From a virus: a stretch of 64,000 nt of DNA. Position numbers and translations under genes: made by a program. This document shows positions 1 to 53,803 of this stretch, piece by piece. Under the pieces are notes generated by a model that worked only from the letters and a program-made list of their open reading frames with translations, was not told the DNA's origin and did not search any database. Position 1 is the stretch's first letter. Each line of letters begins with the position of its first letter. The stretch spans positions 1 to 64,000 of the IMG/VR virus record IMGVR_UViG_3300037258_000358, one strand, 5' to 3'.

Positions 1-2781
1 GGCGCCCTGCTGGCGCTCGCCGCGCCGGCCGCGGCCACCACGAATTACCAGCTGCCGATCATCAAGGTGAACGGGCAGTACAGCCAGCTTCCCCCGGGCT
101 ACGGGATCAAGCTGCAAAGCACTGGCCTTGTCCAATGCATCCACCTGGATACGTCGGGCGACGTCGTCCCCATGGGCGCCGACTGCGCCACGGCCGGGTC
201 CGTGGTCGACAGCTTCGACACCCGCATCGGCGTCGTCACCTTCGAGTCGGCGGATCTTGACGAGGTCTGCGCCACGGACGGGGATGTCCTCCAGCGCAGC
301 GGGGGCGTCTGGGCCTGCGCGGCGCCGCCGAGTTCCGGCGTCACGAGTTTCGATACGCGCACCGGGGACGTCACCTTCATCTCCTCGGATCTCGACGGAC
401 TCTGCTCGACAGACGGCGACGTGCTCAAGCGTGTCAGCGGGACGTGGACCTGCGGCTCCGGCGGAGGCGTCACCTCGTTCAACAGCCGGACCGGAGCGGT
501 CACCTTCACCAATGCCGATTTGACTGCGGTTCTGACCTCGGCCGATGTCGTGGCCGCGCTGGGCTACACGCCGGTCAACCCGTCGAGCCTCGGGACCTTC
601 GCTGGCCAGAACTATGCAACTCCGCCGACCATCGGCGGGACGACACCGGGGCAAGGCGACTTCTCAGGCCTGAACGACACGGCCCTGACGATCTCGACTT
701 CGGTCTGCACAGATGGCTCAAAAACCCTGATCTCGTGTGGGAGCGGTCCAGGAACCGGGACTGTGACCAGCGTAGGCCTCTCTCTCCCAGCGACGTTGAC
801 CTGCACCGGCTCGCCAATCACCACGTCAGGGACATTCTCCTGTTCCTGGGCCAGCGAGGCGCAAAACTCATTCTTCGCCGGGCCGACGTCAGGCTCAGGC
901 ATCCCGGCCTTCCGCGCCTTCGTTCTGGGCGATCTGCCGGCGATTGCTGACGGGTCGATCCTGGCCAACATTTCTGGCGGATCGGCCATTCCAGCGGCAA
1001 GCGCCCTATCGCTGATCCTCGATCATGACCTATGCGCCACCAACGGCCAGGTGGCCTATCGCACCGGAGGGGCCTGGGGGTGCGCGGCGCCAGCGACGCC
1101 GACGATCAGCAATCCTCTCTTCATCCCGAACACTGAGTCCATCGGCATCCTGACGGGCGACGTTGCCCCAACCTCGACCGCGCTTTGGGCCGGATCGCTC
1201 GGCCTCTCGATAGATGCGGCGGATGCCTATGTCTATCAGGGCGCAGCGACACCCACTGTCGTCCAGTCGGCGCAGACCAGCGGCGCGGCCGTGGCGGGGC
1301 CGGGGTCGATCGTCGTCACCCTGGGTGCGTCGCCGACGCCCGGAAACTGGATGATAGCCGCCGTCGAGTCGAGCAGTGTAATCAGTGCCAACACTGGATG
1401 GACGATCTTCAGTGGCCCGACGACTTGTGGCTTCGCCGAGACTAGGTTCGCTTATCGGCGCGTGACGGCCGCCGACACCGTAGTTCAAAACCCATTCTTC
1501 GTCGGCGCGACCGTCTACATGGGCGCGCCGATCATCACCGAAATTGCCGGGCTACCGCTCAATTGGGCGCAGGTCGTCCAGAGCGTTCCAGCGCAGGTCT
1601 GCAACGCCAGCGCCACGAGCGCGAACATCACAGCGACGACGGGGATCGCGAACAGCCTGGCCCTCGCCTTCGGTGGTTATCAGGTCAACGGCAGTTCCGG
1701 TGTGGGAACGCAGTCGATCACAGGCGTTACCGGCGGTCAGATTTCATCCAGCACCTTTAATATAGGGGCCGGCAGGAGTTTCGGTCTGATCGAGGCCAAC
1801 GCCCTCTATGCGAGTCCGTCATCTTCCGTAACAGCGACGCCTGCGTCGACGATCAGCAACAATGGCCTGACCGCCCTGCTGCTGATCCTCAACCCCGCCC
1901 CGGCCGACGCCGAGAGTTGGGAGCCGTTGAGCTACCTGCGGACGATCTACGCCAACGCCGTCGCCAAGACGACGCGAGCGTTCAGTCTCAATTTCAATTC
2001 CAACTTCACCGTCGCGGACGACGGCAATGGCAATGAGACGGTCGGGCTCGATCTTAGTTCTCCACCGGCTATCGGCGGGACGACGCCAGCCGCCGGAGCG
2101 TTCACCACTCTTTCCGCAACGGGTGGTCTGACGACCAACATCACCGGCGGCGGTAATCAATGTCTGAGCGCCAACAATAGTGGCATCGTTTCAGGGACAG
2201 GGTCAGCCTGTGGAAGCGGCGGTGGTGGCGGGACGGGACTTTTCAACCAGACAATTTCGACGACGCCCACAATAAGCAGCACCGACTTAACCGCGTCCTC
2301 GACATATACGCTGACGAATGTTGCGACAGGCGTAAAGCTAAACGGAAGCGGCTATGCTTATGAGTCGACACCTAGCGCGCCATGGTCCTACATAGTTCTG
2401 ATCGCCAACGAAGCTTTCGGTAACGCCGAATACCAAGGGCCACTACTAATGGCCGGCGACGGGTCAAAGTATCTCTATCTTACCGTGCAGGGCCGAGCTG
2501 TGGACGGGGCGGCGACGGCCGTTGTGCAAAACTGTCTAGTGTCAGCAGGAAATTGCGGTTATGCCAGCACCGACTATGTTACAATTAACTGGATACCAAA
2601 TTCTTTCTTTTATTGGCTCAAGGTTTACTACGACGGGACAAACATTCACTTCTATTTGAGTGCAGAAGGATCGGTGTGGACATCGATTTACAGCGGAAAT
2701 GCCTACGCGACCGCATGGAATCACATCGGCGTCAGCACAACCTTGGGGGTTGTCCTTTCATGGACGCAGGGGACGAGCTGA
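1..2781 (+). CDS. Tail fibre protein, 5'-partial, with signal-peptide-like N-terminus
   Basis: The frame is open to the left window edge, so the GTG at 67 is probably not the true start and 926 residues are visible. The first visible residues read GALLALAAPAAATTNYQ, like the end of a Sec signal peptide. Residues about 70-200 hold three copies of a repeat with core SF(D/N)(T/S)RxGxVTF followed by a Cys-containing DGDVL..W.C segment; the last copy runs into ALGYTPVN, a motif common in phage tail fibres. Gly/Thr/Ser-rich segments (PPxIGGTTP, seen at least twice) follow, then a C-terminal part that may be a beta-sandwich or lectin-like domain (inference). The likely role is the distal host-recognition fibre. 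The signal-like N-terminus is odd for a virion protein. Confidence 0.75.
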   Translation, partial: GALLALAAPAAATTNYQLPIIKVNGQYSQLPPGYGIKLQSTGLVQCIHLDTSGDVVPMGADCATAGSVVDSFDTRIGVVTFESADLDEVCATDGDVLQRSGGVWACAAPPSSGVTSFDTRTGDVTFISSDLDGLCSTDGDVLKRVSGTWTCGSGGGVTSFNSRTGAVTFTNADLTAVLTSADVVAALGYTPVNPSSLGTFAGQNYATPPTIGGTTPGQGDFSGLNDTALTISTSVCTDGSKTLISCGSGPGTGTVTSVGLSLPATLTCTGSPITTSGTFSCSWASEAQNSFFAGPTSGSGIPAFRAFVLGDLPAIADGSILANISGGSAIPAASALSLILDHDLCATNGQVAYRTGGAWGCAAPATPTISNPLFIPNTESIGILTGDVAPTSTALWAGSLGLSIDAADAYVYQGAATPTVVQSAQTSGAAVAGPGSIVVTLGASPTPGNWMIAAVESSSVISANTGWTIFSGPTTCGFAETRFAYRRVTAADTVVQNPFFVGATVYMGAPIITEIAGLPLNWAQVVQSVPAQVCNASATSANITATTGIANSLALAFGGYQVNGSSGVGTQSITGVTGGQISSSTFNIGAGRSFGLIEANALYASPSSSVTATPASTISNNGLTALLLILNPAPADAESWEPLSYLRTIYANAVAKTTRAFSLNFNSNFTVADDGNGNETVGLDLSSPPAIGGTTPAAGAFTTLSATGGLTTNITGGGNQCLSANNSGIVSGTGSACGSGGGGGTGLFNQTISTTPTISSTDLTASSTYTLTNVATGVKLNGSGYAYESTPSAPWSYIVLIANEAFGNAEYQGPLLMAGDGSKYLYLTVQGRAVDGAATAVVQNCLVSAGNCGYASTDYVTINWIPNSFFYWLKVYYDGTNIHFYLSAEGSVWTSIYSGNAYATAWNHIGVSTTLGVVLSWTQGTS

Positions 2782-3038
2782 TCATCCTCACTCCCGCGCC
2801 CCGTCCTCGGCGAAGCCCACCACGGCGGCGACGAGAACCCCCATTCGACACCCCATCCCGCTAATGCTATCTGAGCCTTGCAAGGGGGGGGGCGCCGCCG
2901 GTCGAAGCAGTAGGCTGTCGAAAGATTATTTCGCCGCCGCGCCTCACGTCGCCTAGCGCCCGCGCCTGATTCGGGTATCTTTTCCCACGCTGGCGGGCGA
3001 CCGGCGGCTCTCGACAGATCCAGGGTACGGGGCGCGCG
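2782..3038. other. Intergenic region with G9 tract
   Basis: This 257-bp gap lies between the fibre gene and the sulfotransferase-like gene. It holds a perfect 10-bp palindrome CCTTGCAAGG followed at once by a run of nine G (2884-2892). A TATCTT-like -10 lies near 2973 but has no good -35. No supported gene was seen on either strand. Confidence 0.4.
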
Positions 3039-3746
3039 TTGTCGCATCCATTCATCATTTGGGCGGAGCCCCGGAGCGTGGGCACCGCGCTTTCCAATGC
3101 GCTCAAGGCCGTATCCGAGCATCCGGCGATGTATGACGACCCGTTCATGTACGGCGGCCGCCCTGGCCTGCTGAATTGGGTCTATGAGGCCTGGAGGCGC
3201 GGGAACGGCGAGCCGCTATCCGTCGAGATGATGAAGCGCATCTGCTTCAAGGAAGTCCCGGCCAACTTCGATCCCTGCTTTAACGAGGCGATCGCCCGGG
3301 CGGCCGAACCCAACGGCTATCGCCACATCCACCTGGTACGCTGCAACGTGTTCGCCCAGCTGGCCAGCCGCGGTGTTGCCGAGCAACTGGACGCCTGGTC
3401 GCGGGATGAGACGGCGACCAAAACCGCCAGTCTCGTTCAACTCGAGCCGCTCGACGTGGACGACCTGATCCGCAAGTATTATCGGGGCGGCGAGTGTTGG
3501 GCTGCGCTGGAGCGGGACCTGCCCGGCTTTCTCACCGTCCGCAGCGAGGACGTGGCCAGCCGCGATTGCGCTCGCAGGCGCGTCGAGATCGTGCGCATCC
3601 TGGACTTCCTGGACATTCCGGCTGATCGGCTGGCCACCGTCGACGACATCCTGTCTGAGGACGGGGACAACACTGAAGCCCTGTGGTCGAAGGTGCCGAA
3701 CATCGAAGCCTTGAGCCGGGCGCTGGCGCAAAGGGGCATCGGATGA
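3039..3746 (+). CDS. Sulfotransferase-like P-loop protein
   Basis: 235 aa from a TTG start. The N-terminus PFIIWAEPRSVGTALSNAL resembles the 5'-phosphosulfate-binding loop of sulfotransferases (PRSxxT), and the later VRSEDV..........I..FLDIP segment resembles the 3'-phosphate-binding region. The family transfers sulfate from PAPS to sugars or proteins. The stop overlaps the ATG of the following glycosyltransferase (ATGA), which suggests that both act on a common glycan, either on the host surface or on the virion. The substrate cannot be read from sequence. A ribosome-binding site before the TTG is weak, so the start is uncertain. Confidence 0.6.
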   Translation: MSHPFIIWAEPRSVGTALSNALKAVSEHPAMYDDPFMYGGRPGLLNWVYEAWRRGNGEPLSVEMMKRICFKEVPANFDPCFNEAIARAAEPNGYRHIHLVRCNVFAQLASRGVAEQLDAWSRDETATKTASLVQLEPLDVDDLIRKYYRGGECWAALERDLPGFLTVRSEDVASRDCARRRVEIVRILDFLDIPADRLATVDDILSEDGDNTEALWSKVPNIEALSRALAQRGIG

Positions 3747-4879
3747 CCGATCTGGACCCGCTGGCCCTGGACGATCTCGAACTCGCCCCGCGCCCACATG
3801 CCATTTTCCCGTCGATGGAATCCGCGCACGTCGTCATCGTGATCCGGGCCGACGATCCCTATTCGTCATGCAGCGCCCGGGGGCTGAACGTCACCTCCAT
3901 GATGACGGCCCGGGTTCTTCGCCAGAAGGGAGCTGATTGCGATATCTGGCATTGCCCGGATGCCCGGGAAGTGATGCTGAAGCTGCGGCGCGAGGAACCG
4001 CGCCAGCGCCGGCCGATCACGCACGTCGTCATCAATACGCCCGGCTTCGTCCCCCCGGACGCCTTCGGGGAACTGGCCACCACATGGCCCAACGTCCAGT
4101 TCGTCATGCTCAACCACACGGGCCTGGCGTATCTCTCCATCGACCCGGACGGCTGGCAGAACATCCGCGCCCTGCTCGACATGCAGGCCATGCTCGACAA
4201 CGTCCATGTGGCCGGGAACAACCCGCGCTTCTGCGCCTCGATCAAGGCCGGGTTCGGCAAGCGGACGCTGCTTCTGCCCAACCTGTTCGACCTCGAGCAA
4301 TTCAAGCCGCTGCGCCCCAAGCGCCGGTCCTATGCTCCATTGCGGATCGGGTCCTTCGCCGAGGGGCGGCCATGGAAGAACCAGCTGGCCGCGGCTCAGG
4401 GCGCGCTTTCCATCGCCCGCGCGCTGGGCGTCCCGCTGGAACTCTACGTCAACGATGAGCATCCCCACGACAATTGGGACCGCGTCGGACTCATCCGCGC
4501 AAGGCGCGAACTATTCCGCGGCTTGCCCTGGGCGACGCTCGTCCCCGTGACCTGGCAACCCTGGCACGCCTTCCTCCACACCGTCGAGGCGATGGACCTG
4601 ATGCTCTATCCCTCGTTCGACGAGTCGTTCGGTATGGTCCCGGCCGATGGCATCGCCATGGGCGTCCCCTGCGTCACGGCGCCGTCGCTGGAATGGACGC
4701 CGCGGTCCTGGCAGGCGCTCGAGCCGTTCGACCCGGCCTCTATCGCCAGAACGGGTCTCAGGCTCCTTCGCCATCGGCGCTGCGCCCTGTGGTCCGGGCG
4801 CCGGGCCCTGAAGCGCTATGTCCATGCCGGCGCGCGCACGTGGCTGCGCTTCTTGGGTTCGGGACGCCGACTCAGCTAA
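3743..4879 (+). CDS. GT-B family glycosyltransferase
   Basis: 378 aa, starting at the ATG that overlaps the previous stop (ATGA); an in-frame GTG at 3683 would only add residues out of family. The segment LYPSFDESFGMVPADGIAMG, followed by VPCVT, is the E-x7-E-like nucleotide-sugar signature of GT-B (GT4-type) enzymes. A central KN(Q)LAAAQGAL segment is typical of the start of the C-terminal Rossmann domain. It probably transfers a sugar from a nucleotide donor in the cytoplasm. Coupling to the sulfotransferase-like gene suggests surface or virion glycan decoration. Confidence 0.75.
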   Translation: MTDLDPLALDDLELAPRPHAIFPSMESAHVVIVIRADDPYSSCSARGLNVTSMMTARVLRQKGADCDIWHCPDAREVMLKLRREEPRQRRPITHVVINTPGFVPPDAFGELATTWPNVQFVMLNHTGLAYLSIDPDGWQNIRALLDMQAMLDNVHVAGNNPRFCASIKAGFGKRTLLLPNLFDLEQFKPLRPKRRSYAPLRIGSFAEGRPWKNQLAAAQGALSIARALGVPLELYVNDEHPHDNWDRVGLIRARRELFRGLPWATLVPVTWQPWHAFLHTVEAMDLMLYPSFDESFGMVPADGIAMGVPCVTAPSLEWTPRSWQALEPFDPASIARTGLRLLRHRRCALWSGRRALKRYVHAGARTWLRFLGSGRRLS

Positions 4880-24171: not shown

Positions 24172-24187
24172 ATGGTCCCAAAAATCG
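24172..24187 (+). pseudogene. 5' stub of the gene interrupted by the transposon
   Basis: ATG 24172 follows a GGAGG site. Reading continues for five codons and then hits the transposon end. Joining this stub to base 28110 restores one open frame into the 3' part beginning near 28133. Confidence 0.55.
24180..24187. repeat. Target site duplication, left copy
   Basis: AAAAATCG, repeated exactly at 28102-28109. Confidence 0.9.
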
Positions 24188-24213
24188 CGGTATTATGGCG
24201 CAAACGCCGGAAG
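24188..24213 (+). repeat. Left terminal inverted repeat
   Basis: 26 bp, perfect reverse complement of 28076-28101; identity stops right after. Confidence 0.92.
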
Positions 24214-24276
24214 CGGAATCCGGCCCTCCGCGCCATGTCTCCAGGGAACGATCCTAGGAGGCGCGCCGTGAGGGCG

Positions 24277-25212
24277 CTACTCGCGCCAGGGCTTTGTAAG
24301 CCAGCGGAAAAAGGCAAACGCGCCCTTCGACGCGCGCTCTATGGTCTTTGTGTAATTGTATTCCTCGCCGCCTGCCAGAATAAACGTTCGGTCGTATTCA
24401 CTATAGACAGTGCAGAAACCAGTCACGTGGTTGTTGCTGAAAATATCGCTGAATCTCACATACCCATGGAACACAAAGTGCTTATTAGCGCCGCTCTTAA
24501 AGATGGCGTCCAGGAGCACGTCGGCCGGGAATTGTTGGGACTGGTAGACGACCGATTTCTCGCCAGCCGGGATGACTACTCCATAGGGAAGTTCCATTCC
24601 ATTCCCGGCGTTCGGATCGAGCGCGGCTGGAAGAAGCTCATCCATGAGCGCGATTTGGTCCATTCTTTCGTGGATAAAGGCCGGTGTGCGGCCGACGTTG
24701 CGAAAGCGGAAATCGAGGCGGCTCAACTTCACCTGTCTGGAGGGCTTTTCGCCTTCGGTGATCTCCTCGATGGCTGGATCGACGATTTCCAGCGCGAGGA
24801 ACGGCCGCTCCAATTCGGTCAACGCCCGTTCGGCAACCCGCACGGATCGGCTGATATGGCGCGTCTGAACCACCAAGATGATCCATTGCAGGAAAGCGGC
24901 GAGGGCCAAGGCCCCTGTCAGATAGAGAAGATACCACTGGGTCTTCGCTTCATCCTGGCCTGCCTTGGCTATATCGGCGGCTTCTTTCTTGCTCTCTGGG
25001 GTTTGGGTGAGCGTGACAAAGGCCGGTTGCTCTTTGGAGCCGCGCTCGTCGGCCTGGGCACGTTGGGCGCCCTTAGCGGGATTGGCGTGTGGACTCTGGT
25101 CGCTTGGTGCGGCTGAGAACGCGCAACAGACGCACGCGGCGAAAATCAGTCCGGCTCGTGCAACCGCACGGTGTTGATGCCGAGCGCCTTCATGGCCGCG
25201 AAGAGGAACCAT
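24277..25212 (-). CDS. Membrane-anchored passenger protein
   Basis: 311 codons; start uncertain because it overlaps the DUF6471-like gene. A hydrophobic N-terminus (GLIFAACVCCAFSAA) may be a signal, then one TM (about 95-120, YLTGALALAAFLQWIILVVQ) followed by a coiled-coil-like RVAERALTELERPFLAL segment and a soluble beta-rich C-terminal domain. This architecture is common in uncharacterised proteobacterial proteins. Function unknown. Confidence 0.6.
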   Translation of the reverse strand: MVPLRGHEGARHQHRAVARAGLIFAACVCCAFSAAPSDQSPHANPAKGAQRAQADERGSKEQPAFVTLTQTPESKKEAADIAKAGQDEAKTQWYLLYLTGALALAAFLQWIILVVQTRHISRSVRVAERALTELERPFLALEIVDPAIEEITEGEKPSRQVKLSRLDFRFRNVGRTPAFIHERMDQIALMDELLPAALDPNAGNGMELPYGVVIPAGEKSVVYQSQQFPADVLLDAIFKSGANKHFVFHGYVRFSDIFSNNHVTGFCTVYSEYDRTFILAGGEEYNYTKTIERASKGAFAFFRWLTKPWRE

Positions 25213-25382
25213 GCGGGAAACGCTCCCCGGTTGATCTTTATCTGAACTGACGCCTCCGTTTCCGGTAGGCCCATCTCAGTCAGGCGTCGAGCTAGCTCGG
25301 CATGTTTCACGCCAGCGTGGACCATCGACGCCTTCAGATGGCGCTTGGCCGTTTCCGACCATTCCTCGCTCTTTGCAGACAC
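25146..25382 (-). CDS. DUF6471-like small protein
   Basis: 78 aa. KASMVHAGVKHAELARRLTE then ETEASVQIKINRGAFPAWFL matches the DUF6471 pattern (from memory), an HTH-like domain. Shares a divergent promoter with the transposase and is a candidate transposase regulator. Confidence 0.65.
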   Translation of the reverse strand: MSAKSEEWSETAKRHLKASMVHAGVKHAELARRLTEMGLPETEASVQIKINRGAFPAWFLFAAMKALGINTVRLHEPD

Positions 25383-25412
25383 GTTAGCTTTCCATTCTTC
25401 TGACCGAAATCA

Positions 25413-25463
25413 ATCATATCTGTTTGTTTTTCCCTTGCAAGTGATCGCCTAAAATCATACACT
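25413..25463. promoter_or_regulatory. Divergent promoters sharing one -35 palindrome
   Basis: The palindrome TTGCAA at 25435-25440 serves as -35 in both directions: + strand with TACACT at 25458-25463 (17 bp) and - strand with TATGAT at 25413-25418 (16 bp). Confidence 0.6.
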
Positions 25464-25484
25464 TCTGATTGTAGAGCAATCAGA
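25464..25484. promoter_or_regulatory. Inverted repeat before the transposase gene
   Basis: TCTGATTG-TAGAG-CAATCAGA, perfect 8-bp arms, 9 bp before the transposase ATG. Could be an operator or an mRNA hairpin limiting translation. Confidence 0.6.
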
Positions 25485-25492
25485 TGTGATCG

Positions 25493-26488
25493 ATGCCCAA
25501 GCCAACCGGCCAGCATTTCCTCCTTTCCCGGCAAGCCAAGACGCTCTCTCTGGCGACGGTGTTCCGCATGTCGGACGAAGAAGCCGAAATGGCCTTCCGA
25601 AAGGTGCGCTGGGGCGAGACTGACGGCGAGCCGGTTTGCCCTGCCTGCGGGGGCTTAGATGCCTATGATTGCCGGCGCCCGAACGGCGCGCCCCGCTGGG
25701 AATGCCGCGAGTGCAAGAAGCACTTCAGCGTCACCTCGGGGACGCTGTTCGCGTCGCACAAGCTCCCGCTGCGATCCTACCTCGCGGCCATCGCGATCTT
25801 CTGTAATGAGGTGAAGGGCAAGTCGATGCTCGCCATGAGCCGCGACCTGGGCATGAGCTACAAGGCGGCGTTCGTGCTCTGCCACAAGATGCGCGAAGCC
25901 ATGGCGGCCGAATTGAGCGGGCGCGTGGTCGGCGGCGAGGGCAAGGAAGCTGAGGTCGATGGCGGCTATTTTGGCGGCTACGTGAAGCCTGCCAATCGCG
26001 TCGAAGATCGCGTCGACCGCCGGCTATCCGAGAACCGGACCGGCAAGCGCAAGGTCGTGGTGATCATTCGCGAGCGCGGCGGCGACAGCCTCCCGGCGGT
26101 GTTCAGGTCCGAAGCCGCCGCGACCAACTTCATCCGCTCGCACGTCAAGCCCGGAACGGTCGTCAACGCCGACGAAGCGGGCTCCTGGGATGCGCTCCAC
26201 GCCAAGTATGAGATGAAGCGCATCAATCACGGCGAAGCCTACAGCCTCGACGGTGCCTGCACGAATTGGGCGGAAGAGTATTTCAGCCGGCTCCGTAGGG
26301 CTGAGGTTGGCCACCACCACCACATCTCCGGCGCGTATCTGCTTCGCTACGCCCAAGAGGCGGCGTGGCGCGAAGACAGCCGCCGGGTGGGCAATGGCGA
26401 ACAGGTTCAGCGCGTCGCCCAGCTTGCCATGGCCAAGAAGCCCAGCGTCGATTTCTGCGGCTATTGGCAGAGGCACAAAGCAGCTTAA
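25493..26488 (+). CDS. IS1595-family (ISXO2-like) transposase
   Basis: 331 aa. N-terminal zinc ribbon VCPACGG...WECRECKKHFSVTS, then the ISXO2 DDE domain: EVDGGYFGGYVKP (first Asp), VNADEAGSWDALH (second Asp) and the last region with NWAEEYFSRLRRAEVGHHHH. The family catalyses cut-and-paste or related transposition at inverted ends. Length is normal and there is no frameshift, so the element may be active. Confidence 0.92.
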   Translation: MPKPTGQHFLLSRQAKTLSLATVFRMSDEEAEMAFRKVRWGETDGEPVCPACGGLDAYDCRRPNGAPRWECRECKKHFSVTSGTLFASHKLPLRSYLAAIAIFCNEVKGKSMLAMSRDLGMSYKAAFVLCHKMREAMAAELSGRVVGGEGKEAEVDGGYFGGYVKPANRVEDRVDRRLSENRTGKRKVVVIIRERGGDSLPAVFRSEAAATNFIRSHVKPGTVVNADEAGSWDALHAKYEMKRINHGEAYSLDGACTNWAEEYFSRLRRAEVGHHHHISGAYLLRYAQEAAWREDSRRVGNGEQVQRVAQLAMAKKPSVDFCGYWQRHKAA

Positions 26489-26495
26489 GATTGGG

Positions 26496-26526
26496 TCGAC
26501 GGGCGGGGCCCACCCCGCCACCGTCG
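26496..26526 (+). other. GC-rich hairpin after the transposase gene
   Basis: TCGACGG(G)CGGGG-CCCA-CCCCG... forms a long stem, without a T-run. It may stop or stabilise the transposase transcript. Confidence 0.4.
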
Positions 26527-26612
26527 ATAGCAATGCGCCAGCATCGCGTGGATGAACTTACGCGAGTCGCGTCATGCCTCAAATCGTAATCGATCACCTG
26601 ATCTTGGATGCG

Positions 26613-26843
26613 TCAGCCCCTGAGCGCGCGTCGCAACCCTTCCCGAACGGCGTCGAGCGCAACCGGTTTTGCGGCCTCAACGGCCTTTCGTTTCAGGTCG
26701 CCCCAACGTCCGAGTTGCCGCCCGCAGCCTTGGCAAGAGGCGATGGAGTCATCGGTTTTGCCATTGGAGAGGACGAGTTTGGTCGGCCCGCGAGTTGGGC
26801 ATTGGAATTTGACGCTGATATTTCCAAGCGGAATGTTGTTCAT
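26613..26843 (-). CDS. Small zinc-ribbon passenger protein
   Basis: 76 aa from ATG 26843: MNNIPLGNISVKFQCPTRGP, later SCQGCGRQLG, then a basic helical tail. Two half Cys motifs suggest a degenerate zinc ribbon. Function unknown. Confidence 0.5.
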   Translation of the reverse strand: MNNIPLGNISVKFQCPTRGPTKLVLSNGKTDDSIASCQGCGRQLGRWGDLKRKAVEAAKPVALDAVREGLRRALRG

Positions 26844-26945
26844 GTCTCGGCTCCAAATGGGGCCGACGACGCTTGACCAAGAGACTGGAATCGCAAGATT
26901 CTCAGGCTCTTCTTGGCGGTCGCCGTGTCGTCGGCGATTGAATAA

Positions 26946-26982
26946 ACCCTCCGGCGCGTCCAACGCCGGAGGGTTCTCTTTT
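26946..26982 (+). terminator. Bidirectional rho-independent terminator
   Basis: 11-bp perfect stem (ACCCTCCGGCG/CGCCGGAGGGT) with a 7-base loop, followed by TTCTCTTTT; on the other strand TTTATT follows. Confidence 0.85.
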
Positions 26983-27100
26983 CGGACGATTCCATTTTCG
27001 GCGCCTAGCCTGCGGTTAAACGCAGGCGGCTCGCGCTTGAGCGGCCCTCACTGTTCAGCCTAAACTGCCTGCGGGATGGCCTCATCGGCCCTCCTGGGGC

Positions 27101-27235
27101 GTTGGAACCCCTCACAAGGCGGCCCGAGTGCGGCCGTCAACAGCACTCCTCGACCATGCGGTCGGGGAGGCGTCAGTGTATGTCCAGGGCGCAAGCCTAA
27201 AGACTGGCGCGGCTCTCCTTGTGAGGCTTCCAAAC
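27101..27235 (+). ncRNA. Structured RNA candidate in the transposon
   Basis: A closing helix pairs 27110-27119 with 27217-27226 (10 bp) and, across an internal loop, TTGGAA with TTCCAA. Inside are a 6-bp stem (GAGTGC/GCACTC), a 10-bp stem CTCCTCGACC-ATGC-GGTCGGGGAG, and a GGC-GCAA-GCC hairpin with a GNRA tetraloop. No known RNA family recognised. Could be a cis element of the downstream gene. Confidence 0.5.
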
Positions 27236-27258
27236 TCCCCGGCTCCGGGACGGGGAGT
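27234..27258 (+). promoter_or_regulatory. Hairpin over the ribosome-binding region
   Basis: ACTCCCCG...CGGGGAGT, 8-bp stem ending 5 bases before the ATG at 27263. It would bury the Shine-Dalgarno-like GGGGAG, so translation of the next gene may be controlled. Confidence 0.5.
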
Positions 27259-27262
27259 GGAA

Positions 27263-27616
27263 ATGCAGTGTCCCTACTGCCTCGAACAGATCATCGACGG
27301 CGCCAAGCTTTGTCGGTTCTGCGGGAAGACGCAGGTAGCCGAGAAGGCTAGGCGTCACAACCGCTTGGGCGTCGTGCTGCTCTCATCTATCGGCGTAATC
27401 GTGGTCATGCTCGTGTCCATGATCGTGCTGGAATCGGTGTTTGGGCCGCAGAGCCTCAAAGATGAGGCCAATATCGAAAAGGCGAATTGCATCGCCAACA
27501 AAGGCGACGGTTACTGGACAGGTTCGTCGGGGATGACACTGGCTAGGTTTTGTGAGGCCTCCGCCGCTCTGAAGGTGCTCGAACAGGACCGGAAAGATCA
27601 CCCCGAGCGCTACTAG
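27263..27616 (+). CDS. Zinc-ribbon membrane protein
   Basis: 117 aa. Begins MQCPYCLEQIIDGAKLCRFC, a zinc ribbon with CxxC pairs, followed by basic residues, one TM (about 32-54, LGVVLLSSIGVIVVMLVSMI) and a soluble tail. Similar small membrane zinc-ribbon proteins are widespread and uncharacterised. Confidence 0.65.
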   Translation: MQCPYCLEQIIDGAKLCRFCGKTQVAEKARRHNRLGVVLLSSIGVIVVMLVSMIVLESVFGPQSLKDEANIEKANCIANKGDGYWTGSSGMTLARFCEASAALKVLEQDRKDHPERY

Positions 27617-27619
27617 CCC

Positions 27620-28042
27620 TTAAGGCTCGACAGCCCACCTCTTCGGCGATCCCTCCAACCGCACTATCCCCATGCCGATCCGCCGCTCTAGCGTCAGGTG
27701 CAGCGCGCATTCTATGGAGTTGGTCCCGAGGTAGCCTTTGACGCCTTTGGCGGCGGCGATCTTGTTGGCGATCTCCCGCGTGGTCATGGGCCGCTTGGCC
27801 TGGCGCAGGATGTCGAGCGCCATACGCGCCCAGGTTCCGGTGTTCTCGCCCCGGTGATTGGTCCATGGCCGGATAGGCTTGATGGCCAACACGTTCTCGT
27901 CAGGCTTGAAAATCAGGAGCGCTGCGGCAAGGTGAGTCGCATCCGCCGTCAGCCGGATCGGGTCGCCTTCATGGACTAGCAGCATCCCGATTGTGCGGGC
28001 ATACTTCTTGCGAAGGGCGACGACGACATGAGACTCGGCCAT
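27620..28042 (-). CDS. Winged-helix passenger protein
   Basis: 140 aa. MAESHVVVALRKKYARTIGM... then LADAT.LAAALLIFKPDEN, and a C-terminal winged helix (MALDILRQAKRPMTTREIAN). It resembles a family of alphaproteobacterial proteins often found beside mobile elements (from memory). Stop lies 3 bp from the convergent zinc-ribbon gene. Confidence 0.6.
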   Translation of the reverse strand: MAESHVVVALRKKYARTIGMLLVHEGDPIRLTADATHLAAALLIFKPDENVLAIKPIRPWTNHRGENTGTWARMALDILRQAKRPMTTREIANKIAAAKGVKGYLGTNSIECALHLTLERRIGMGIVRLEGSPKRWAVEP

Positions 28043-28075
28043 GACCGGAAATGTGGTGCTAGATCAGGCCGTTGT

Positions 28076-28101
28076 CTTCCGGCGTTTGCGCCATAATACC
28101 G
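28076..28101 (-). repeat. Right terminal inverted repeat
   Basis: 26 bp, perfect inverted copy of 24188-24213. Confidence 0.92.
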
Positions 28102-28109
28102 AAAAATCG
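28102..28109. repeat. Target site duplication, right copy
   Basis: AAAAATCG, same as 24180-24187. Confidence 0.9.
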
Positions 28110-28455
28110 CGGAAGGGCGCGCGGCGTCGGGGATGATGTCCGTGTCCTGGGATTTGGAAGCGGGGCGGCCGGATGGTGCGGCAGTGATCAAGGTTCTGGA
28201 CGAGGATGGGGTGATACACATGGCGCGAGTGGTGACCGACCGGGCCGAGATCGAGGCGATACTGAAGGGCCTGGGCGTACGAGCGAGCGGGAGACCTCCA
28301 AGTCGGTCGAGAAAGTCGACACGGGGCGCGGCGTCCTGATTCTCCCGCTCCCGGCCCTCCCTGCCTTGGGGGAAGAGATCGAGCGCATGCAGCGGAAGAT
28401 TGCGGACGCGATGTTCATTCCGGCCCAGTTGCTGTCGCGGGGGCCGTATAGATGA
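28110..28455 (+). pseudogene. 3' part of the interrupted gene, probably also frameshifted
   Basis: From ATG 28133 one frame reads MMSVSWDLEAGRPDGAAVIK...EIEAILKGLGV and then degrades into Arg/Ser-rich sequence, ending at 28339. The -1 frame from about 28280 reads GVLILPLPALPALGEEIERM...FIPAQLLSRGPYR and ends at 28455, where its stop overlaps the next ATG (ATGA). This suggests one ~110-codon gene split by a frameshift, or two overlapping genes. The transposon removed its native start, though internal ATGs could still be used. Confidence 0.5.
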
Positions 28456-51068: not shown

Positions 51069-51626
51069 ATGGCTCTGGGTTTCTTGAAGGAAGCGGGACC
51101 GGCAGTGGGCGACGTTCACGTCAACACGGCCGACTTCCTCGCGCCCGACAAGGGCAAGCGCACACCAGAGGACATCGAGAACGAGCGCAAGGCGAATCTG
51201 CGCACGGGACCCGAAGGCGCCGTTTCGAAGGAAGGCTTCATCGCCAAGGTCGACACCTCGCATGGCCTGGTGTTTGGGTTCGGGATCGTCTGCCGCAAGG
51301 GCGGCCAGCCGTACTTCGACCTGCAGAAGGACCATATCCCCGAGGATTCCATGATCGAGGCCGCGGCCGATTTCATGAAGAACAGCCGCCAGGCGCATGA
51401 GATGCACGCCGGGTCGAAGCAGGGCGATGTCGTATTCGCGATGCCGATCACCGACGACATCCGCAAGTTCATCGCCGACAGCGACGAGACCGGCCTCCTG
51501 ATCGGAATGGCCCCGTCCGCCGAAGTCTTGGCCAAGTTCAAGAGCGGCGAGTACGCCGGCTTTTCGATCGGCGGCGAGCGCATCGACGATGAGGACGGCT
51601 CTGCAGGAGTCCGACGTGCGGCATGA
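51069..51626 (+). CDS. XkdF-like prohead protease
   Basis: 185 aa. GFIAKVDTSHGLVFGFGIVC, YFDLQKDHIPEDSMIEAAAD, MHAGSKQGDVVFAMPITDDI and GYAGFSIGGERI-type end (EYAGFSIGGERID) match phage XkdF, a predicted serine protease that processes scaffold. Directly precedes the scaffold-like gene. Confidence 0.8.
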   Translation: MALGFLKEAGPAVGDVHVNTADFLAPDKGKRTPEDIENERKANLRTGPEGAVSKEGFIAKVDTSHGLVFGFGIVCRKGGQPYFDLQKDHIPEDSMIEAAADFMKNSRQAHEMHAGSKQGDVVFAMPITDDIRKFIADSDETGLLIGMAPSAEVLAKFKSGEYAGFSIGGERIDDEDGSAGVRRAA

Positions 51627-53803
51627 GCGACAAGCCCACGGTCATGCGCCGCCTAAAGATCGCGGAGATTTCGGCCGTGGACCGGCCGGCGCAGGCTCAC
51701 GCCAGGGTCGCCCTGATGAAAAGGCACGATCCGATGATCGATGAATTCATCAAGCGCGAGTTCAGCGACGACAAGCGCAAGGAACTCGCCGAGTCGGGAG
51801 CGGCATTGCCGGACGGTTGCCTTTCCGGCGACACGCTTGTTGAAACGCTCGATGGCCAGCGGCCGATCTCTGGTCTTCTTGGTCGGCAGCGCCTGCTCAC
51901 CGAGCAAGGTTGGAAATCAGCCGAGGTCCAGTATTTCGGAGAGCAGCGACTCGCTGAGGTGCGTCTTTCTCGCGGGTATGTGCGGCGCTCCATTCTTGCG
52001 ACGCTTGGCCACCGTTGGCACACTCGGCGCGGGATCGTGCCCACGGCCGGCCTCCGACCTGGAGACCTGCTTCCTCAAGTATCCCGCGACCGCTTCGCTG
52101 TAGCTGTCGAACCATCCGAGATGGCTGTTGCAGGGGCCACAGAGCAGTCCGCGAACCTCGCCAGTCAGATGGTCATGGTCGACATGGAGCGCGGTCCACG
52201 TGCGCCCTGTCCGCGTGTTTGCACGGTTCAGCGTGGGCGTCCGGCAGCAAATGGCGCATCGGCCGCCCTGCGCGATAAACATCGCCTCGAATTCGGCGTT
52301 TCCGATGCCGTATTTTCGGCGCAAGGCACCTTCTCGGCGACGAAGCCAGCGAAGATCGCCGAAGTCGACCTTGGCGGAAGATTCCTCGGCATGAGTTCGC
52401 TTGCAGGTCTTACATTCGGTGCGCCTCCGGCCGCTTTCCCGAATGTAGAACTCGCTCGGTGGCTGCCTGACTCCGCAGAGTCGGCAGTTCCGCCATGCCG
52501 GATCGTCCGGAAGCGTTCCAGCCAGGATGCGTCTCGCATCTGTGGAACCATGTCGCCACAGGCGTTGGTAATGGGGGCTGCAGAGTCCGACTGCCTTGAC
52601 GATTCCTACGCAGCCCTCGATTTTGCAGGTGTTGACGGTGGATGGTCTGTCGAAGAGGTCCGGATGACCGGCCTCATCGAGTCCGTCTACTGTGGCGTCG
52701 TCCCTGATTTGCATAGGTTCGCTCTAGCCGATGGCCTGATCACCGGCAACAGTTTCCCGATCGAAAACGAAGAGGATCTGCACAACGCGATCCGCGCCGT
52801 CGGCCGGGCCAAGGACGAAGCCAAGGCCAAGGCGCACATCATCGCGCGAGCCAAATCGATGGGCGCCACGGGCGCTCTTCCCGAAGACTGGAAGGCCAGC
52901 AAAGCCGTCCACCTCACTCCCCTGAAAGGAACGACCATGACGCCCTCAGAGCTTCGCAAGTCCCTGGGTCTGGCCGACAGCGCCTCCGATACCGAGGTCA
53001 CCAACGCCCTCATCGTCAAGGCCAACAAGGCCGACGACGACGCCGAGAAGGCCAAGGCCAAAGAGGAAGAGGCCGAAAAGCGCGCGAAGAAGGCCGAGGG
53101 CCTCGCCAAGATGAGCGACAAGCACCGCGGATTCATGAATCACGCGGACGCCAAGATGCCCACGGGCGGCAAGGACGCCTTCGCCGAGATGGAGCCGTCA
53201 GAGCGTGACGCGCACATGAAGGCCAACCCGATCGAGGACGACGGCGACGCGGACGACGTATCGAAGGCCATCAAGGCCGGGACTGCCTTCGTCGCTGCCG
53301 GCGGAATTCTCATCCGCAAGAGCAAGGTCGGGGCGGACGTGTTCTCCGTGCTGAAGGCGACGACTGAGCAGAACGCAACCCTGGCCGAACAGGTCAAGAA
53401 GTCCGACGAGGCAGCCGCGCTCGCCAAGTTTGAAAAACAGGCGGACGCCGAGTTCGCGCACCTGCCGGGCACAAGCGCCGAGCGCGCCGAACTGCTCAAG
53501 GCGATCGACGCCATGCCTGAGGCCGTCAAGAAAGCGACGCTCGCCAACATGGCGATCCAGGAAAAGCTCGCGAAGTCGGCCTTCACCATGATCGGCCGGG
53601 ACGCCTCGGACCTCGGTCTCGAAAAGAAGGACGAGGACAACGCCGAGGCTGAACTCGACAAGAAGGCCAGGGAGATCGTCGGGAAGTCCGCTGGGACGTC
53701 CTACGCCAAGGCCTATGACCAGGTCTGCAAGGACAACCCGGATCTCTACGCCAAGTACGTGAGCCAAAAGCGCCAGCGCACGAACGGCGCCGACGCGGAC
53801 TGA
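51623..53803 (+). CDS. Intein-containing scaffold-like capsid protein
   Basis: 726-codon precursor. N-extein (1-65) holds EISAVDRPAQAHARVALMKR, an XkdF/prohead-protease-type C-terminal motif. The C-extein continues SFPIENEEDLHNAIRAVGRA...HIIARAKSMG, a conserved phage domain (DUF6582-like, from memory) interrupted exactly at G65/S. Then a charged coiled-coil region and an Ala/Lys-rich scaffold-like C-terminus. After splicing the product is ~415 aa and probably assists capsid assembly. Start ATGA-overlaps the protease gene. Confidence 0.82.
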   Translation: MSDKPTVMRRLKIAEISAVDRPAQAHARVALMKRHDPMIDEFIKREFSDDKRKELAESGAALPDGCLSGDTLVETLDGQRPISGLLGRQRLLTEQGWKSAEVQYFGEQRLAEVRLSRGYVRRSILATLGHRWHTRRGIVPTAGLRPGDLLPQVSRDRFAVAVEPSEMAVAGATEQSANLASQMVMVDMERGPRAPCPRVCTVQRGRPAANGASAALRDKHRLEFGVSDAVFSAQGTFSATKPAKIAEVDLGGRFLGMSSLAGLTFGAPPAAFPNVELARWLPDSAESAVPPCRIVRKRSSQDASRICGTMSPQALVMGAAESDCLDDSYAALDFAGVDGGWSVEEVRMTGLIESVYCGVVPDLHRFALADGLITGNSFPIENEEDLHNAIRAVGRAKDEAKAKAHIIARAKSMGATGALPEDWKASKAVHLTPLKGTTMTPSELRKSLGLADSASDTEVTNALIVKANKADDDAEKAKAKEEEAEKRAKKAEGLAKMSDKHRGFMNHADAKMPTGGKDAFAEMEPSERDAHMKANPIEDDGDADDVSKAIKAGTAFVAAGGILIRKSKVGADVFSVLKATTEQNATLAEQVKKSDEAAALAKFEKQADAEFAHLPGTSAERAELLKAIDAMPEAVKKATLANMAIQEKLAKSAFTMIGRDASDLGLEKKDEDNAEAELDKKAREIVGKSAGTSYAKAYDQVCKDNPDLYAKYVSQKRQRTNGADAD
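51818..52750 (+). other. Intein (311 residues) with reversed endonuclease
   Basis: Begins with Cys66 (CLSGDTLVET), has block B ATLGHRW and N4-like VPTAGLRPGDLLP, ends VYCGVVPDLHRFALADGLIT then GN before Ser. Penultimate residue is Gly, not His, as in a known phage subgroup. Between the splicing halves (52077-52642) the + frame is open but has no end-to-end protein-like motif; instead the opposite strand there encodes an HNH endonuclease. Confidence 0.9.
51917..52714 (-). CDS. HNH (endonuclease VII-type) homing endonuclease, antisense inside the intein
   Basis: 265 aa. Residues 30-55 CKIEGCVGIVKAVGLCSPHY (zinc-binding domain common in phage endo VII proteins), 77-104 CRLCGV...CKTC zinc ribbon, 150-200 GGRCAIC...HVDHDHLTGEVRGLLCGPCN (the HNH/endonuclease VII core). 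Core coordinates about 52070-52627 fit exactly between the splicing halves. Codon boundaries are aligned with the + frame. Start ATG 52714; ribosome site weak. Confidence 0.85.
   Translation of the reverse strand: MQIRDDATVDGLDEAGHPDLFDRPSTVNTCKIEGCVGIVKAVGLCSPHYQRLWRHGSTDARRILAGTLPDDPAWRNCRLCGVRQPPSEFYIRESGRRRTECKTCKRTHAEESSAKVDFGDLRWLRRREGALRRKYGIGNAEFEAMFIAQGGRCAICCRTPTLNRANTRTGRTWTALHVDHDHLTGEVRGLLCGPCNSHLGWFDSYSEAVAGYLRKQVSRSEAGRGHDPAPSVPTVAKRRKNGAPHIPARKTHLSESLLSEILDLG

Follow-up and report, generated by a model that had tools for sequence, protein, structure and literature searches.

A passenger-carrying IS1595-type transposon in a phage genome and the candidate switch-like leader RNA among its cargo

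The closest described systems to the mobile element considered here are the IS1595 insertion sequences and the 'transporter IS' among them (Siguier, Gagnevin and Chandler 2009), the latter being defined, as quoted in PMC3129680 (citing Siguier 2009), by passenger genes unrelated to transposition. Target-site duplications of 8 bp are a feature of the family, an N-terminal zinc-ribbon domain is present in all IS1595 groups but IS1016 (PMC8101967), and a terminal GG is stated for the ends of the related Merlin elements. For the structured RNA carried by the element, the nearest described relative is sRNA-Xcc1 (Rfam RF02221), whose cloned form measures 88 nt and which gives a band near 100 nt on Northern blots (PMC2996969); in Xanthomonas integrons symE is found downstream of it (PMC12444791). 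The title of Chen 2011 (cited in PMC12444791) describes it as trans-acting, and it has been studied both as a trans-acting, virulence-linked sRNA and as an exported RNA (PMC12189769, PMC12444791).

The DNA analysed here (the window) is a stretch of 64,000 nucleotides from a virus record of 67,839 bases, in which terminase, portal, major head, tape-measure, and DnaB genes identify a phage. Within it, a complete transposon of 3,914 bp spans positions 24188-28101, with the following features:

24180-24187, strand not applicable: left target-site duplication AAAAATCG, exact repeat of the right copy
24188-24213, plus strand: left terminal inverted repeat CGGTATTATGGCGCAAACGCCGGAAG, 26 nt, 100% complementary to the right end
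24277-25212, minus strand: cargo, predicted membrane protein; by eye, a signal-like N terminus and one transmembrane stretch precede a domain bearing ERPF...NVGRTPA motifs
25146-25382, minus strand: DUF6471 protein (Pfam E 1.9e-22, above cut-off) with a predicted XRE/lambda-repressor fold, which may repress the divergent transposase promoter
25493-26488, plus strand: DDE transposase of the IS1595 family, intact, 331 aa, zinc ribbon at the N terminus
26613-26963, minus strand: cargo, small protein, putatively a zinc ribbon (ECs_2282_CxxC of NCBIfam, E 2.5e-6, below cut-off)
26945-26975, plus strand: hairpin resembling a terminator (12 pairs and a short run of T) at the close of the transposase side
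27096-27262, plus strand: structured 5' leader RNA (model match 27096-27248, 121.9 bits with covariance model R1; the last part contains the Shine-Dalgarno hairpin)
27263-27616, plus strand: cargo, zinc-ribbon and transmembrane protein of 117 aa behind the leader (Pfam zinc-ribbon match below cut-off)
27620-28042, minus strand: end-anchored winged-helix protein (HARE-HTH, Pfam E 3e-6, above cut-off), starting 59 bp inside the right end
28076-28101, minus strand: right terminal inverted repeat, 26 nt, 100% complementary to the left end
28102-28109, strand not applicable: right target-site duplication AAAAATCG, exact repeat of the left copy

The 26-bp ends are unique within the window even with 3 mismatches, and none arose by chance in 100 shuffles of the window when up to 3 mismatches were allowed. 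The perfect 8-bp direct repeat abuts both ends, confirming the inverted ends and duplication first described in a sequence-only reading of this DNA; as set by this duplication, the ends read CGG, and GG occupies positions 2-3 in the ends of the whole group described below. The transposase matches the Pfam domains DDE_Tnp_IS1595 (E 2e-36, 125.7 bits vs a cut-off of 27) and Zn_ribbon_IS1595 (E 1.5e-10, 41.3 bits vs 25.4) as well as the NCBIfam IS1595 family (E 2e-37, 129.4 bits vs 75), and aligns end to end with eight relatives at 57-75% identity. Judged by its sequence, the element is an intact 'transporter IS' of the IS1595 family, with passengers unrelated to transposition between intact ends, that was inserted between two phage genes by transposition. 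The sequence-only reading had likewise proposed an intact 'ISXO2-type' transposon with passengers inside a phage, and the ends, duplication, transposase domains, and phage genes of the record all back that proposal; the label 'ISXO2-type' is only the name of the Pfam domain.

The element is flanked on the left by a ParB-like gene whose last position is 24104, and on the right by a small ORF that begins at 28133, so no evident gene is interrupted. Neither the flanking ParB-like gene nor the terminase had a close relative in the searches made, leaving no empty site for comparison, blastn of the element against a phage collection gave no match, and a tRNA/tmRNA search returned none. Elsewhere in the window, a phage head-region protein (51623-53803, plus strand) has an apparent intein-like insert by eye (CLSGDTLVETLDG... 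to ...LITGN/S), for which Pfam reports no intein; an Endonuclease_7 gene (51917-52714, Pfam E 8e-18) lies on the opposite strand inside this insert, and the sense frame is open throughout.

Relatives of the element recur elsewhere. The core of its end sequence matched 22 stretches in IMG/VR and the 22-nt end had five matches in bacterial genomes; transposase searches gave five viral loci and, in 14 of the 385 Alphaproteobacteria genomes sampled, close relatives. Scanning around each transposase for exact 8-bp duplications with matching ends recovered 16 further complete elements of 3.1-7.6 kb, for a total of 17 with the window copy: six in viral contigs (L021, L028, L029, L030, L031, L011) and ten in Alphaproteobacteria genomes (L064, L066, L067, L070, L071, L074, L075, L076, L077, L078). 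All have ends related to those in the window and exact 8-bp duplications, with weaker end pairs (14-15 of 18) in L070 and L077. With the orientation set by the transposase gene, their layout from left to right is left end, variable gene or genes (often encoding a membrane protein, as in the window, L021, L066, and L077), repressor-type gene, transposase, variable cargo, winged-helix gene, and right end. The repressor-type gene, either DUF6471 or XRE, is divergent from the transposase gene; DUF6471 holds this place in 14 of the 17 elements and a true XRE (HTH_3) gene does so in L011 and L028. In 15 elements, a distance of 58-98 bp separates the right end from the start codon of the winged-helix gene. 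Cargo differs between copies, and both the interval from left end to DUF6471 and that from transposase to winged helix are variable.

These comparisons establish, at the level of sequence, that the window element is one of a recurrent, unnamed group of IS1595-type transposons that carry cargo and have a fixed layout. The recurrence of the ends, the duplication, and the DUF6471 and winged-helix genes in unrelated contigs and genomes also contradicts the possibilities that relatives would lack the ends or that the cargo is native to the phage. The group shares DDE_Tnp_IS1595, the N-terminal zinc ribbon, 8-bp duplications, and passengers with the described IS1595 'transporter IS', but differs from them in combining a repressor-fold gene, a transposase gene, and an end-anchored winged-helix gene around changing cargo. 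In a comparison made without ISfinder, we know of no description of such a conserved three-gene layout. Two side observations came from these searches. A 400-bp mini-element (L025, 473-872) has both ends of the same type and an 8-bp duplication, with a truncated winged-helix gene as its sole gene, and the 7.6-kb element L076 contains, as identified by eye, an IS630-like transposase gene at about 2867-3937 that adjoins an XRE-ImmA-like gene.

The structured RNA at 27096-27262, missed in the sequence-only reading, was first met through a plasmid search, as a 78% DNA match over 147 bases to unannotated DNA of Shinella plasmids, and its fold has a z-score of -5.5. Relatives that adjoin small ORFs are found on plasmids from Rhizobiaceae, Nitratireductor, Paracoccus, and a planctomycete. 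In a structure built from nine sequences, 23 of 48 pairs were changed on both sides, a number reached in 0 of 500 shuffles. Covariance model R1, built from these nine sequences with the window copy among them and giving E-values that are rough by construction, matched 48 of 385 Alphaproteobacteria genomes with up to six copies each. Across 39 leader sequences (30 of them outside the R1 building set), 40 of 48 pairs had double changes, which 0 of 500 shuffles matched, and 458 cells showed changes on both sides compared with 132 in shuffles. In the same alignment 91.9% of cells pair, a figure inflated by fitting the alignment to R1 and outweighed by controls in which sliding the pairing partners destroyed the covariation. 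At its gathering score, Rfam found nothing in the window.

The leader also occurs on other viral contigs; a first DNA pattern, probably too strict, found 0 loci there, and two further patterns found six and 0. In the other transposon copies searched with R1, no leader was found; because it is absent from these elements, we regard the leader as cargo and not as transposon machinery. One leader copy, in a Shinella plasmid (L004), is split at about 2252-3992 by a group II intron that has its own reverse transcriptase, and a group II intron was rejected as the identity of the leader itself since this intron interrupts the RNA. A pseudoknot between the P2 loop and an upstream CGG strand looked good by eye and was not supported when tested. 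At another locus (L150, 1032-2283), a leader copy lies close to a distant IS1595-family transposase (31% identity).

Several features point to an action in cis. Of the 39 copies, 31 are followed within 10-110 nt by the start of an ORF with a ribosome site; on the other side 0 of 39 have one, and random places have one in 15% of cases. Immediately ahead of the gene, 17 of the 39 copies have an intrinsic terminator into which the conserved GAYCACC strand folds. In place of its hairpin partner, GGUCGGGGAG can take CUCCCCGAYC as pairing partner (95% of cells, with covariation above all shuffles), which gives a second structure that competes with the first. In the window copy, the leader tail ACUCCCC can pair either with a 5' GGGG, closing stem P0, or with GGGGAGU, the Shine-Dalgarno region, and the two computed folds differ by 0.7 kcal/mol. 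The leader could thus fold either with P0 formed and the Shine-Dalgarno sequence free, or with the Shine-Dalgarno hairpin formed, presumably switching between the two in response to a trigger. The conserved, covarying fold and the alternative expression platforms in cis (terminators, competing helix) are features of riboswitches, and we read the leader as a candidate cis-acting switch.

Downstream of the leader we find genes for a serine recombinase (viral contigs L149 and L154), XRE regulators, an Mrr-type nuclease, and DUF4268, PAP2, and PhyH proteins. In L149 (12194-13927) and L154, the leader lies 33 nt before the large serine recombinase gene, and in L113, L116, and L152 it precedes proteins that resemble PD-(D/E)XK nucleases by eye and have no Pfam match. 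That recombinase, XRE, Mrr-like nuclease, PAP2, and PhyH genes share no pathway would be unusual for a metabolite riboswitch, and a protein-responsive attenuator is accordingly a conceivable identity for the leader, though one we rate as somewhat doubtful given that its conserved internal loop (GUAUGUCCAGG...CUAAAGG) looks by eye like an aptamer core.

The sRNA-Xcc1 family, RF02221, scores 22.7 bits on the window leader against a gathering cut-off of 53, placing the window RNA outside the family by Rfam's rule. R1 and RF02221 nevertheless match the same place at several loci, with the Rfam score above the cut-off at L128 (56.2 bits) and below it at L112, L134, L136, L138, L140, and L035 (34.6 bits at the last), and R1 gives full-length matches at the RF02221 loci L090 (E 3e-5), L084, L108, L103, and L088. 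Among 398 sampled Pseudomonadota genomes, 57 contain RF02221 itself. At 22 RF02221 loci the upstream DNA has a strand with complementarity to the 3' strand (mean score 8.8 vs 6.6 for crossed pairs), and 16 of the 22 have a downstream ORF, compared with 22% at random; the shared fold, including its 5' half, is thus found at sRNA-Xcc1 loci. The two RNAs have the same P4/P5 core and 3' strand, whereas the 87 positions of RF02221 cover the 3' half alone and the window RNA is a leader joined to an ORF. The window RNA appears, then, to be homologous to an extended form of sRNA-Xcc1, which it would resemble in its way of working, and the simplest reading would make sRNA-Xcc1 the 3' half of a cis leader.

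The RNA at 27096-27262 could instead act in trans, as a free-standing sRNA in the manner reported for sRNA-Xcc1, with only an incidental place before the zinc-ribbon gene. The cloned 88-nt species, the Northern band, and the 'trans-acting' of the Chen 2011 title would fit such an RNA, but the strongly one-sided placement of ORFs with ribosome sites, together with the conserved 3' strand, which forms a terminator directly before the gene in 17 of 39 copies, makes this unlikely in our estimation. We lean, with some reserve, towards the leader being an undescribed and widespread class of switch-like 5' leaders on phages, plasmids, transposons, and integron cassettes, with sRNA-Xcc1 as its 3' half, that would control genes of mobile elements in cis (recombinases, XRE regulators, nuclease-like genes, and SymE in Xanthomonas integrons) through terminators or Shine-Dalgarno hairpins.

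Turning to the genes that recur with the transposase, the DUF6471 protein has an AF2 model of good confidence (pLDDT 88), with a Z of 10.3 to the XRE protein 3f6w (VIA), and C proteins and HipB next. It thus has the lambda-repressor-like helical fold of XRE-type repressors in its predicted model, and this fold together with its place divergent from the transposase supports the earlier suggestion that the cargo could include regulators. The model also superposes on the restriction-modification C protein C.Esp1396I (Z 9.4), and the layout of a small divergent regulator is common to XRE repressors, C proteins, and the window element, but the likeness is at the level of fold alone, without a Pfam HTH_3 match; a literature search on DUF6471 found no paper. 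The model of the winged-helix protein has a helical N terminus and a winged helix, with weak and generic structural matches only. From the fold and divergent place of the one, and the model and place of the other, we propose that the DUF6471 protein may repress the shared transposase/DUF6471 promoter region and that the winged-helix protein may bind the right end as an accessory or regulator of transposition, its own promoter having to lie in or next to that end. The transposase would cut and join CGGTATTATG-type ends, and one cargo gene (27263-27616) would have been captured together with its cis-acting leader RNA.

Both proteins could be ordinary cargo regulators, and the transposase and ends might alone be mobile, with the DUF6471 and winged-helix genes as passengers that have no role in transposition. 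The definition of 'transporter IS' quoted above allows for exactly such passengers, and binding by the two proteins is a prediction. We nonetheless consider this improbable, as both genes keep fixed places even where transposases are 55-75% identical and other cargo changes, and as XRE genes replace DUF6471 in the same divergent place. Taken as a whole, the window element is likely best explained as an IS1595 'transporter IS' of a recurrent group that carries regulator genes of its own and, in this copy, has captured a leader-bearing cargo gene.

Among the gene names of the sequence-only reading, DUF6471 and the winged helix now rest on Pfam families, the zinc ribbons fare less well with matches below cut-off, and the membrane protein is without a match in Pfam, PHROGs, NCBIfam, or PADLOC. 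A weak homologue of the membrane protein is found in L021 in the same place and orientation (E 4e-4), and its true start is probably inside the listed ORF because this ORF overlaps the DUF6471 gene. For the gene behind the leader, ATG 27263 is preferred over GTG 27128 as the start; a relative of its product was found in only one of 372 Alphaproteobacteria genomes, which marks this cargo as rare. Defence functions had also been suggested for the cargo, and an element acting as a defence island, guarding the host of the phage or the phage against rivals, would recall sister element L029, which carries an ATPase matching the candidate defence family PDC-M28C (E 4e-20, PADLOC) and a small two-gene pair that is toxin-antitoxin-like by eye, but we find this reading highly doubtful for the window copy, where a defence role is unsupported because none of the five proteins besides the transposase matches a PADLOC family at E 0.1.

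In conclusion, passenger-carrying IS1595 'transporter IS' are already known, making the group described here a variation on a known transposon type. It illustrates the passage from a simple IS to a regulated cargo vehicle, in which a repressor-fold gene and an end-anchored gene are kept while cargo is swapped, and its copies in viral contigs offer a route for cargo between hosts. Should our reading of the leader hold, it would represent a candidate riboswitch class that is open to direct tests and that roughly one in eight of the sampled Alphaproteobacteria genomes contain, and the existing data on sRNA-Xcc1 would need to be reread as describing part of a larger cis leader.
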